In this document: one piece after another, positions 5,931 to 12,143 of the stretch
How positions within the stretch are numbered: the stretch's first letter is position 1
How the letters are laid out: each line of letters starts with the position of its first letter
Source of the DNA: Acidobacteriota bacterium
Lineage (GTDB): Bacteria; Acidobacteriota; Blastocatellia; Pyrinomonadales; Pyrinomonadaceae
Direction: 5' to 3'
Length of the DNA stretch: 12,143 nt
Assembly (NCBI GenBank): GCA_003222935.1
Contig: QHXL01000316.1
Coordinates: forward strand, 8,697 to 20,839
Notes under the pieces: generated by a model
Database searches by the model: none
What the model saw: only the letters and a program-made list of their open reading frames with translations
What the model was told of the DNA's origin: nothing
Made by a program: the position numbers and the translations under genes

Positions 5931-6360
5931 AGTGCAAAGTTGGGTAGGTGCGAGCAGCGCCATTATTACCTCTCTAGAAAAGTGCAAGTTGGAAGGGGGC
6001 AGAGCGACGCGACACGGACCACTCTAGAAAAGTGCAGGTTGGGAAGGGGGCGGCGCTACCGAGACCTTTAATTAGTGGTCCTGAGCGCGCCCCCGCTGAC
6101 GCTCATTTGAAGTGCCATAAACTCTTACTAGGATCCGGCAATTAATCTCAAGCAACAGCATCGCCTGGCCGAAAATGGTCGAGCCTCAGTCATCTATATC
6201 AAAATTGGAATAGGGATAAATTGTAGTGCTGAGGCTTAGGAGGATTAGGTAAGCGGGGGCGCGCTCAGGTCCGCTTTGGAGAGGTACTTTATGAGCCGCT
6301 TGCCCCCTTCCCAACTTGCTCTTTTCTAGGGAGGAAGCGCCGCTTGGCACGTTTCTCAAC
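5931..6360. mobile_element. Element E1: long palindromic non-coding repeat (MITE-like, unclassified)
   Basis: The 578-bp gap between FAS1 and the next gene is mostly this element. The left inner arm (6022-6099) and right inner arm (6251-6331) are inverted copies around a core of about 150 bp (6100-6250). Shared blocks are CTAGAAAAG, GTTGGGAAGGGGGC, and CCTGAGCGCGCCCCCGCT. The middle of the right arm (about 6268-6294) has diverged. Outside the left arm the terminal unit is repeated at about 5981 and, more weakly, at about 5931, a 50-bp period. A degenerate repeat also follows the right arm (6339-6360). E2 at 7941-8342 is a second copy in the opposite orientation. No ORF inside is convincing. 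The type (MITE, structured RNA or fold-back repeat) is not established. Confidence 0.8.
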
Positions 6361-6382
6361 GTGTATTTAACTAGTAAGCTGC

Positions 6383-7813
6383 CTATGGCGTGACGATATT
6401 ATTCATCTTCACGACTTCAAAATTCGAGCCCTTGATCGTCTTCAATGCATTAAGCTCATCATCATTCCAACGCGAATCGGGTGCTCCGCTGATATACCAG
6501 TTTGAACCGTTGTCAGCGAGGATCAAGCCATACTTTTTCATAGCCCTTAGAATCACCTGCATCGCCGGCGTAAAGCCTGAAATATTGAACGACGCCTTAA
6601 GTCGGACTTTCATTCCCATCGGCGGACGATTCACGCTCGTGTTGGTGCTGGCCCAGTGACGCGCCGGTGCAACGTACGCCCGTCGAGTAATCTGCGCAGT
6701 GAATCTAATAGCATGTTTGATCTCCTGCTGTTCAAACACTTCGTCGTAACGCACAAGGCCAGGAAAGATCGGCAGCCCGGCCGCATCTGCTGAAGTCCAA
6801 CCCGCGGGTCGCAAGGCGTTTGAGTTCAGATCAAACACTGCTCCGCCAGAAGCATTCCAACTCGCTCCGTTGTTAACAGGAAAGGCGTTTCCCATTTCGT
6901 AAAGCTTCCAGTTGTCGCGATCGATAACGATTACGTGACGATCGCCGGTTGAGCTTGGACCACCTTCAATCGGTGCGTTAGGTGGCACCGGATACGGCCC
7001 CGGGTCACTTTCATCTTCGTAGTCTCCGAAGATGGTTGGAACAAGCGGTTGGCTCCCCGGCACAACGATGTATGGAATGCCATTCGGCGCCCCGTTCCAA
7101 ACGGTGCCAAAGTCAGGATGCAAGTTAGTATTCAAACCAATGCCGGCAATTAGATTGTCGGAATTTGGATCGAGCGGACTGTTCGAGATGTCTTCATTCC
7201 AGGCGTTGTCGGATGGAAACAGTTGCTTGCCGTGCAGACTGGCGCCTGGGCCCAGATCCGGAATCGGTTGAGGAGGCGGAGCATCATCCGGCGGACCTCC
7301 GCCAACGTGGCCGATACCAACACGCACTCTATTGCTTGTTACTCCTCGCAGAGTTATCCCAACCAAAACGTCGCCAACATCCCCCATGTTGTCGTTTAGA
7401 CGCATGACGATCGAGGTCATCCATCCAAAACTCTGGACTGCGCCGACATACTCAACAGTCATCGGGTAATGAATGTGATTCCCGTCTTCGGCATCAGCTG
7501 TTATCGATGCTGCTGTTTCCCCCGGCTGCAAAGTCAGGTTCGTCGCGAACAACATGATGCGCGTGCGATTGTCTTGACCGAAACTGACTGGAACGGTTGG
7601 CGAGACTGGTTCGGCGAGTAGGTTTACTGATTCAACAGCAATTGCTCGAGTGGAGTTGGTTTTAGTGATAAGCACGGGCGCGCTGGCAAGGCGCGCACGG
7701 GTCGGCGCAAGCAGAGCGAGTCCGATGACCGCGTGAACAATCAACAGTGAAAGTACTTTGTACCTGGGCCAGCGCGCCGCACGTGCCGGGCCGGCCAATC
7801 GAAGGGAACGCAT
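6383..7813 (-). CDS. Secreted protein of the 'FPSDNAWN' conserved family, function unknown
   Basis: From ATG 7813 the protein has 476 residues. A basic N-terminus is followed by a hydrophobic segment (about 19-36, VLSLLIVHAVIGLALLA), so it is exported. About residues 58-167 form a beta-rich, probably Ig-like domain (TRIMLFATNLTLQPGET ... LVGITLRGVTSNRVRVGIG). A Gly/Pro linker (171-187, GGGPPDDAPPPQ) follows. The C-terminal domain (about 197-476) holds blocks I recognise from conserved hypothetical exported proteins: LFPSDNAWNEDIS, HPDFGT, GIPYIVVPG, DRHVIVIDRDNWKLYE, ADAAGLPIFPGLVRYDEV, TRRAYVAPARHWAS, PPMGMKVRLKASF, KKYGLILADNGS and WYISGAPD. No enzyme motif is certain. GGAG 7 nt before the ATG supports this start over the upstream ATG at 7897. 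The gene stands alone between inverted elements E1 and E2. Confidence 0.88.
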   Translation of the reverse strand: MRSLRLAGPARAARWPRYKVLSLLIVHAVIGLALLAPTRARLASAPVLITKTNSTRAIAVESVNLLAEPVSPTVPVSFGQDNRTRIMLFATNLTLQPGETAASITADAEDGNHIHYPMTVEYVGAVQSFGWMTSIVMRLNDNMGDVGDVLVGITLRGVTSNRVRVGIGHVGGGPPDDAPPPQPIPDLGPGASLHGKQLFPSDNAWNEDISNSPLDPNSDNLIAGIGLNTNLHPDFGTVWNGAPNGIPYIVVPGSQPLVPTIFGDYEDESDPGPYPVPPNAPIEGGPSSTGDRHVIVIDRDNWKLYEMGNAFPVNNGASWNASGGAVFDLNSNALRPAGWTSADAAGLPIFPGLVRYDEVFEQQEIKHAIRFTAQITRRAYVAPARHWASTNTSVNRPPMGMKVRLKASFNISGFTPAMQVILRAMKKYGLILADNGSNWYISGAPDSRWNDDELNALKTIKGSNFEVVKMNNIVTP

Positions 7814-7877
7814 GGACCAACTCCAAACTGAACTTAGATTTCTTTTGTGGTCGGGGCAATCGAGGAGAGGTAGAAAC

Positions 7878-7907
7878 AACGTAATTTGACGAGGCAATTC
7901 AAGTCAA
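7878..7907 (-). promoter_or_regulatory. Possible promoter for the secreted FPSDNAWN protein gene
   Basis: On the minus strand TTGACT (7902-7907) is followed after 18 nt by TACGTT (7878-7883), about 65 nt before the chosen start. The -35 is good and the -10 is weak. It lies just outside element E2. Confidence 0.35.
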
Positions 7908-7940
7908 GACATTTGTTTGTCAACCACAGGCTACAAGTGT

Positions 7941-8342
7941 CTCACTAGTAAAGTACAAGTTGGGAAGGAGGAAGAGCGACGCCTCAAGTACCTCACTAGA
8001 AAAGTGCAAGTTGGGAAGGGGGCAGAGCGGAGCTACCGAGACCTTGGATTAGTGGTCCCGAGCGCGCCCCCGCTGACCTGATCCTCCGAAGTCTCAGGAC
8101 TGCAGTTTAACTATCGCGATATTCTTCAATGTTGATCTGAAACGCTGGCTGCAAGGGGGTTCGGCAGTCACTTGGGCCAGCTAGTTGCTCGGGATGCTAG
8201 TTAAGGATTATGGCGCTTCAGATGATCATCAGCGGGGGCGCGCTCGGGACCACTAATTAAAGGTCTCGTGGCGCCGCTTGCCCCCTTCCCAACTTGCACT
8301 TTTCCAGTGAGGTACTCGATGCGACCTTTGCCCCTTTCCGAC
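7941..8342. mobile_element. Element E2: long palindromic non-coding repeat, inverted copy of E1
   Basis: The inner arms 7992-8076 and 8229-8310 are inverted copies around a core of about 150 bp. A 26-bp block (7999-8024 against 8279-8304) and a 29-bp block (8048-8076 against 8229-8257) are perfect. Outer units at 7941-7991 and 8311-8342 repeat the arm ends once more at about 50-bp spacing and also pair across the palindrome (GAGGTACTCGA with TCAAGTACCTC). The core matches the E1 core only when reversed: 8192-8223 corresponds to 6105-6136 on the other strand, and 8070-8112 to 6209-6252. It fills most of the 541-bp gap and ends 12 bp before a stop codon. No coding capacity or transposase is seen. 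Confidence 0.82.
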
Positions 8343-10413: not shown

Positions 10414-12143
10414 CTAAGGTGTTAAGGAGAAATCCTCGGGCACAAACTCGACCGAGCTCAGCACGCCATCGCTTTTGATTTCTTTGTTTGCCAGGGCCCT
10501 GTAACAGACAACGACTGAAGTCTCAGGTTTACGTTTCCCGCAGGTAAGCGTCCCACGAACATCGGAGGTGAATGTCGTACGGCGAATTTGTTGGAAAGTT
10601 TCTGTACGAAGTCGTAAGACACTGTCGGTAGTCTTTACGACAAAGACTAAACCTCCTTGTTCACACTCGATACTCATCAGTCTGCCCTGGATTCTCGACT
10701 CGCCAGTCGCGGGAATTCGCAATACCTCCCGCAACGCCATCGACGGATCGTCAGGCTGACTTATGTCATCCGGGTTTACCGAGGATTCCAATCCCAGTCC
10801 GCGGGCACGTCGCGCTGCTTCCTTTTGAGCTCTCTGTTCTTCGATGGCGTGAATTGCGACCAGCAGCTTTTCCGCATGAAGCCGAACTTTGTCTTCAATG
10901 TTTCCCACGCGGTCGAGCATTAGGCGAGCATTTTTATAATCGTCCTGGTGCATGTAAAGCTGGCCCAACATGTAGATGAAATCGATGCGCCCGGGCAGTC
11001 GACCGAGTGCGTCATTCAAAAGCGCGATTGTTTCGTCAACCTCTGTATTTGTTACAAGATTTACGTAAGCGAGGAGGTTGTACGAATGAGGAAAATCGGG
11101 CCGAAGAGATATTGCTGTCTTCAATTCACGACGAACCAGGGCGGCTGATTCCGATGAGATCACCAAACCCGGCTTCAGATCTGTTACGCCCTGGTGCGAC
11201 AGCGCGTAAGCGTAATAATAGTGGACGAGGTAGTTCGCCGTCTCAGCACCGACGGCGCGTTCAAGATTCATTAGCGCCTCGTCCAATTTTCCCTGCCGAA
11301 AGTACAACATCCCTAAAGAGGCACGGGCCAAAGTCAGATTTGGATCCAACGTTAGTGCGCGTAGCAAAAATTCTTCCGCCTCAGGTCTATTACTGTGCAA
11401 GAGAAGATCACCCAGGTAGGCTTGCGACTCGGCCTCGGTAACGGGAGTAGCTGTCAGTCTCACTTCCCTATCAGTTTTAACTGCCAGGTTGGATTCGACC
11501 GTCCGATACGAGTCTTGCTGAATGTACCGACGGAGCTCGTTCTCCATTCCTTCAAACGTTGTCTGAAACGAACTTTGAAATGCCTGTTCGATCGGAACAT
11601 TAGCTCTCACTGAATCGAGAAACTTCCACAACCGCGAAGCTTGTTGTCCATCACGGTGGATCATCAAGTAGTGCATCAGCGCCCACGACTCTGCGTAAAA
11701 AATGTTTTGTCCGTAATTAGGTGAATTGTAATCAGCTTGAAAAAGTACGCGTAGAGGGATGATTGGAGTCTGGCGCAACAGGGATAAGTGTCGACGGATC
11801 GGTCGGCCGAGAACGACTTGCCGATCATTGTTGAACTGCAGTGTGCTGTAAAACTCTGCGAGGCCCTCGTTCAACCAGGCCGGTACCGTGCCAACCGATG
11901 TGTTAACGAGTAAGTGTGTGAATTCGTGAAAGCCAATGTTGAGGTAGTCCTGATCGCCACGAGTTTCAGCGCTTAACGTTATGTAGTTTACGTCCTGGCC
12001 CGGTTGAAAATAACCAGCATTGTTCTCGCTGGTTTTGAAAGGATGATAGGAGACGTCGTTCTTGAAGACGATAACTGTTGTCGGTACGCGATCATTCAAA
12101 CCAGCGCCGGGAAAAATTTGAGAGACAGCATTCCGAAACTGTT
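10414..12143 (-). CDS. Paralogous metallopeptidase-TPR protein, N-terminus beyond the window
   Basis: The frame is open to the right window edge, and the visible part (about 576 residues) aligns from start to end with the neighbouring 654-residue protein. The first visible residues, QFRNAVSQIFPG, match QFRQVFTYLFPN at residue 58 of the paralog, so about 57 residues including the expected signal peptide lie outside. The zinc motif is intact: HEFTHLL, then AWLNEGLAEFYS. TPR-like repeats follow (QAYLGDLLLHSN, LARASLGMLYFRQGKLDEALMNLERA, FIYMLGQLYMHQDDYKNARLML). The linker is shorter than in the paralog (about 20 residues, SQPDDPS). The C-terminal domain keeps both cysteines (SIECEQGG, TLTCGKRK). 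A TTG at 12099 is internal, not a start. Tandem placement on one strand indicates local duplication followed by clear divergence. Confidence 0.9.
   Translation of the reverse strand, partial: QFRNAVSQIFPGAGLNDRVPTTVIVFKNDVSYHPFKTSENNAGYFQPGQDVNYITLSAETRGDQDYLNIGFHEFTHLLVNTSVGTVPAWLNEGLAEFYSTLQFNNDRQVVLGRPIRRHLSLLRQTPIIPLRVLFQADYNSPNYGQNIFYAESWALMHYLMIHRDGQQASRLWKFLDSVRANVPIEQAFQSSFQTTFEGMENELRRYIQQDSYRTVESNLAVKTDREVRLTATPVTEAESQAYLGDLLLHSNRPEAEEFLLRALTLDPNLTLARASLGMLYFRQGKLDEALMNLERAVGAETANYLVHYYYAYALSHQGVTDLKPGLVISSESAALVRRELKTAISLRPDFPHSYNLLAYVNLVTNTEVDETIALLNDALGRLPGRIDFIYMLGQLYMHQDDYKNARLMLDRVGNIEDKVRLHAEKLLVAIHAIEEQRAQKEAARRARGLGLESSVNPDDISQPDDPSMALREVLRIPATGESRIQGRLMSIECEQGGLVFVVKTTDSVLRLRTETFQQIRRTTFTSDVRGTLTCGKRKPETSVVVCYRALANKEIKSDGVLSSVEFVPEDFSLTP

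Follow-up and report, generated by a model that had tools for sequence, protein, structure and literature searches.

Small, probably mobile non-coding hairpins in an acidobacterium from soil, apparently reduced relatives of a RAYT-carrying element

The window, a stretch of 12,143 nucleotides from an acidobacterium with a 5.19-Mb draft genome of 695 contigs, contains two palindromic elements, E1 and E2, on either side of a host gene. This raises the question of whether such elements are mobile DNA, structured RNA or local fold-back repeats and, if mobile, of what moves them. E1 and E2 are, in our judgement, very probably non-autonomous mobile hairpins that depend on a REP-associated tyrosine transposase (RAYT), being of the REPIN/TIRtron kind, with unusually long nested arms and derived from a gene-bearing ancestor. 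Their family is apparently one of small non-coding mobile hairpins, reduced relatives of an element that carries the RAYT gene.

The original prediction, made from the window alone, had described E1 and E2 as sharing long inverted arms, and a repeat search of the window found arms where that prediction had placed them. In E2, positions 7980–8024 pair with 8279–8323 (93 % complementary) and 8037–8076 with 8229–8268 (95 %); in E1, 6019–6051 pair with 6302–6334 (88 %) and 6074–6100 with 6249–6275 (89 %). The perfect blocks of 26 and 29 bp reported for E2 read as described, and the claim that the cores match only when one copy is reversed was borne out (6060–6136 with 8192–8268, 87 %; 6217–6275 with 8051–8109, 83 %). 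Folding of E2 gave −247 kcal/mol against −141±6 in 100 shuffles (z −18) and folding of E1 gave −200 against −148±5 (z −9.7), with no shuffle as good in either case. Two features had been missed: each half is compound, with about 30 nt between its two conserved blocks, and an additional copy of the outer part, about 50 bp long, lies to the left of both elements. E1 thus comprises this extra unit (5968–6021, + strand; model R1 positions 4–57, matched at C480:14664–14717 with 31.9 bits), a left half of outer and inner block (6023–6098, +; 64.3 bits, also found as repeats), a core (6099–6251, −) and an inverted right half (6252–6334, −; 75.1 bits). E2 has the same plan, with an extra unit (7939–7993, +; model positions 4–57, C480:16635–16689, 27.8 bits), a left half (7995–8075, +; 76.7 bits), a core (8076–8229, +) and an inverted right half (8230–8308, −; 74.7 bits). 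No open reading frame of note lies within either element, as predicted, and both have features of the MITE type in being short and non-coding with terminal inverted repeats.

A BLAST search with E2 gave at least 120 matches in its own genome (best 40 of 87 candidates). Fifty of the 51 half-elements found were aligned, one short half (L045) being left out, and the alignment contained two near-invariant blocks, GTTGGGAAGGGGGCAAGCGG and GCGCGCCCCCGCTG, with some 30 nt of variable sequence between them. The half is about 88 nt long and whole palindromes span about 190–400 bp. A sequence-only model built from 50 of these same halves (threshold E≤0.001) detected at least 75 matches on at least 38 contigs, of which at least 55 were full halves (best 150 of 1273 candidates). 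These full halves formed at least 22 facing pairs (44 halves), with 11 halves single; within 400 bp, none of the full halves scored were paired in the opposite order. The supposition that E1 and E2 represent a defined family is upheld by these counts of matches, contigs and facing pairs. One further pair, on contig C553, has its left arm partly masked by a run of N. Core sizes were bimodal, with 26–57 nt in 16 pairs and 124–238 nt in six pairs, including E1 and E2. Outer units of about 50 bp were found outside the arms of E1, E2, C113, C373, C449 and other copies. At C449 (L049) and C373 (L052) they are stacked mirror-wise to the left and right, a pattern suggestive of one element inserting into another. 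Local pairing of the two blocks was predicted in 36 of 47 testable halves. Single halves were no more stable than shuffles, with just one of 50 beating all 40, and the local half-hairpin is therefore not used as proof.

Of 16 genomes of the genus, nine contained matches to the half model, in most cases between one and eight; one of these (G013) had eight half matches, in copies of the same split type. BLAST with E2 gave matches in three of 58 other genomes searched, all three within the genus, and a distant blastn search with E2 of plasmid and phage collections gave no match.

In the window both elements follow the ends of host genes. E1 lies 22 bp past the stop of P504 (6383–7897, −), a host protein without a Pfam match that separates the two elements, and E2 lies 12 bp past the stop of P654 (8355–10319, −), a Peptidase_MA_2/TPR-like host gene. 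P654 adjoins a related gene of the same type (10414–12099; 48 % identity), and full-length homologues of these genes (50–58 %) occur in seven of 15 other genus genomes. Placement was assessed for 23 copies with gene calls based on a simple hexamer score. Overlap with a called host gene did not exceed 60 bp in any of them, and three touched a gene end by 9–14 bp. Sixteen sites were between tandem genes, four convergent, one divergent and two not callable; in the same stretches, 97 of 126 neighbouring gene pairs were tandem, 18 convergent and 11 divergent. Fifteen of the 16 tandem sites were closer to the stop codon.

This last bias is what would be expected if the elements were structured RNAs or regulatory hairpins at 3′ ends, such as terminators or mRNA stabilizers, kept by selection whatever their origin. 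The very stable folds of E1 and E2 point the same way, as does the position of two copies in G013 beside the same gene as a host copy. The two arms of a copy are also slightly more alike (77.4 %) than arms of different copies (74.4 %), a value reached in seven of 10 000 permutations (19 pairs out of 22, each of the remaining three having a single listed half). However, this excess is small, no Rfam family matched the window at gathering score, and mismatches between arms showed no excess of wobble pairs, with 53 GU, 54 AC and 130 others in 14 copies whose orientation was taken from the gene before them. Two relatives, moreover, lack E2 at the corresponding junction. The comparison of arms gives scant indication that an RNA helix is under selection. 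Together with the lack of an Rfam match this makes a conserved RNA unlikely, and the conserved blocks are taken to be DNA recognition sites. The structured-RNA option of the original prediction is therefore not supported, and we give a small probability to a structured RNA or 3′-end regulatory hairpin kept by selection.

Comparison with relatives bears on the mobility and age of the copies. In one relative (G012) the homologues of P654 and P504 are adjacent without E2, and E2 is also absent from a second (G007), in which P504 is cut by a contig end and was recognized by a weak match. E2 was thus either acquired in the host lineage or lost from those of the two relatives. A composite transposon of E1, P504 and E2 is an unnecessary assumption, as P504 and P654 are adjacent without the elements in G012; the fasciclin gene was not found beside P504 in that genome, which consequently offers no comparison on the E1 side. 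A comparison for target duplications established none and no exact insertion end; the ends were not sharp and the E2 sites of the relatives were too diverged. At two of six loci in G013 the element adjoins the same gene as a copy in the host genome, with a different gene order on the far side. These two loci are probably inherited, and the shared neighbour indicates that part of the family is old. For the same two loci (L220 and L221, against L038 and L050 of the host), interspecies homology ends about 60 bp or less from the element, with one neighbour conserved and the other not; recombination between copies may be a source of such genome rearrangement. It had been proposed that many copies, sharp ends and empty sites would mark a mobile family, and a conserved position beside the same genes an RNA or regulatory role. 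Many copies and an E2-free site in two relatives were found, sharp ends were not, and a conserved neighbour was seen at those two of six loci.

The nature of the element is indicated by the C553 copy. Between its arms, the NCBIfam model for RAYT proteins (NF047646) is covered by two frames (9.2e-15, model positions 5–106; 5.8e-6, positions 107–146). A frame change disrupts the gene, and neither frame by itself reaches the model cut-off. The inner block flanks the gene on either side; the outer block is present to the right, and a remainder of the left outer block follows the run of N. At C373 the same arms enclose two RAYT remnants, the gene start (tblastn 1.6e-15 in a set of 10 elements, 2.4e-12 in one of 37 loci) and the gene end. 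Blastn aligned C373 with C553 in conserved order, at 75 % identity across 96 bp and 73 % across 111 bp (gene end). This order is that expected after an internal deletion and strongly supports such an event at this locus. C361 contains a weak RAYT remnant (blastn E 0.008). The earlier statement that no transposase is present thus holds for E1 and E2 themselves and fails for the family.

The long cores without a gene also share sequence with C553. A match to the 5′ flank of the C553 RAYT gene was found at one core end of E1, E2, C113, C449 and C361, with a score reached by 0–2 of 500 shuffles (one for the right end of the E2 core, two for E1); in reversed controls the score was reached by 117 or more of 500. 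The reverse complement of the E1 core terminates in GGCACTTCAAATGAGCGTC, as does the end of the RAYT-bearing C553 copy. The corresponding end of C373 did not match the C553 5′ flank above chance (67 of 500 shuffles). At the other core end, C113, C449 and C373 matched C553 (0–2 of 500 shuffles), and the left core ends of E1, E2 and C361 were at chance level (31, 167 and 226 of 500, respectively); all six long cores are mutually alignable at that end. Since they have one core end in common with C553, five long copies, E1 and E2 among them, are read as derivatives by internal deletion, and for E1 and E2 an origin from an autonomous element is suggested by this one end. The graded copies would accordingly form a deletion series, in which we infer the direction to be from gene-bearing to gene-less.

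These observations support the first option of the original prediction, a MITE moved in trans, with RAYT (NF047646) as the candidate transposase. A classical MITE of an insertion sequence with a DDE transposase would have the same size and terminal inverted repeats, but the gene that the arms were found to enclose is of the Y1/RAYT type, and this derivation is highly unlikely. The preferred reading, a RAYT-dependent hairpin, can be set out as follows. The ancestor would have carried the gene for a RAYT, an HUH/Y1 transposase, between long inverted repeats. Internal deletion would have stripped this gene, giving the broken gene of C553 and the two gene ends of C373, and would have left E1 and E2 with untranslated end sequence alone and sixteen pairs with cores of 26–57 nt. 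Through the arms, the conserved blocks may become exposed in single-stranded hairpins, for example at the replication fork, and the RAYT would cut and rejoin at these blocks, moving the unit to other intergenic places. E1 and E2 may now be inert or dependent on another RAYT, and one intact RAYT gene is present on contig C52.

RAYT genes of the same clade are framed by related repeats in other genomes. With an intact RAYT from a relative in the same genus (G009) as query, 29 of 119 genomes of the bacterial family, including the host, had matches at E≤1e-15. The G009 RAYT is 100 % identical to that of a MAG labelled Pyrinomonadaceae, nine of 11 named loci of this clade bear the same label, and the host is accordingly taken to belong to the Pyrinomonadaceae (Acidobacteriota). 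All six intact RAYT relatives passed the NF047646 cut-off, and the best PDB match was TnpA-REP (4er8, 7e-4). Among 17 close RAYT loci, 13 had inverted flanks scoring above all 100 shuffles; in the remaining four, two (L181 and L189) are at a contig end, one (L188) has 122 bp on one side and one (G009:C425) has a one-sided arm. A compact motif, CAGGTnRGGAAGGgnGGCTTGCCCCCGCT, was found by pattern at 13 of the 17 loci, compared with none of 17 shuffled loci and three of 30 other Y1 loci, and we read it as an E1/E2 arm that lacks the insert. The two sets of 13 differ, as L186 has inverted flanks without the motif and L189 the motif without inverted flanks. A hairpin of the compact type also lies upstream of the P654 homologue in another genome (G001:C179, locus L122, 5602–5776). 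Blocks of the E type themselves occurred at C553 and G009:C425 among 51 Y1 loci of the genus, with a lone distant outer block at L140 and L141. On C52 (L178) the intact host RAYT gene has a complete palindrome of about 115 bp on each side (about 1285–1404 and 2165–2285). This sister type is present at 40 or more places in the host genome (best 40 of 76 candidates) and forms a second REPIN-like population. It weighs against the RAYT-dependent reading that the sole RAYT found inside E-type arms is the broken one of C553, and that the arms around the intact C52 gene, though related, are not the same. Fold-back amplification, in which a unit of about 50 bp is duplicated in inverse without any transposase, may account for the mirror-wise stacked units of C449 and C373, but as an origin of the family it is the least probable of the explanations considered, the evidence against it being that copies sharing both blocks and the facing order are dispersed over at least 38 contigs and that the RAYT genes of relatives are framed by the same motif.

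A further step is possible from the presence of gene sequence between such arms at two loci on different contigs (C553 and C373). The RAYT gene may itself have moved as cargo within its own inverted repeats, as a true transposon, and then decayed by internal deletions to non-autonomous hairpins; we would give this an even chance. RAYTs are described as single-copy and apparently not self-mobilizing (PMC3116915), and the account of tnpAREP genes in PMC6006769 describes their autonomous mobility as being without formal evidence. If correct, the spread of a RAYT within its own terminal repeats would contrast with that description. REPs and REPINs are widespread in bacteria, and their rise from a transposon and the self-mobility of RAYTs are open questions. 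A series from gene-bearing to gene-less copies in one genome, together with the intact sister system on C52, makes the origin of REPINs testable.

Among known systems, insertion sequences of the IS200/IS605 family combine HUH/Y1 chemistry with end hairpins, as supposed here. In contrast to these, the transposase here fits the RAYT model and the ends are inverted repeats of each other; the class 1 TnpA model (NF033573) gave 16–26 bits or no match against a cut-off of 55. Transposable elements associated with palindromes also occur in haloarchaea. In the TnpA-Y1 classification as presented in PMC6006769, the motifs of the G009 RAYT (DHFH, WQ and YIHANP), compared by eye, are nearest to subclass 2.5 (DH[LF]H, WQ and YI[VI]ANP), although the third is inexact and that subclass is listed for xanthomonads and pseudomonads. 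The original prediction that no named family fits does not hold at the level of kind, where RAYT-associated REPINs and TIRtrons, as described in PMC3116915 and PMC3733652, both fit. Like REPINs as outlined in PMC3116915, the elements have inverted conserved ends around a variable spacer (at least 22 facing and no opposite-order pairs), an intergenic position, a predicted hairpin and a RAYT in the same genome (broken on C553, intact on C52). They differ in that one copy encloses a RAYT gene itself and in that the half is about 88 nt, compared with 20–40 bp for a REP, with no conserved GTAG: GTAG or CTAC was near the block foot in 13 of 50 halves and anywhere in 28, and the elements do not belong to the GTAG REPs. 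TIRtrons (TIRYT; Di Nocera et al. 2013, PMC3733652), for which acidobacterial examples are reported, likewise have a RAYT-like gene in long terminal inverted repeats (TIRs) unrelated to GTAG REPs, and their repeats are also moderately abundant and dispersed, whether single, paired or clustered. All three properties are found here, with the gene of C553 and the inverted flanks of close RAYT loci, the dispersed copies in the same genome and TIRs unrelated to GTAG REPs. A GGGGWSAS motif is reported for some TIRs, not all (PMC3733652); none of the 50 halves contained it, and among the 13 RAYT loci with the compact motif it lies within the motif copies at two (L175 and L176). The elements are therefore placed as a new family, a variant in its compound arms. 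Compared with the TIRtrons of that report, the arms here are compound, with palindromes of about 190–400 bp and stacked units of about 50 bp, and gene remnants attributed to internal deletion are visible. On sequence grounds, the fit is thus to RAYT-associated repeats, resembling REPINs in plan and TIRtrons in their long terminal repeats without GTAG.
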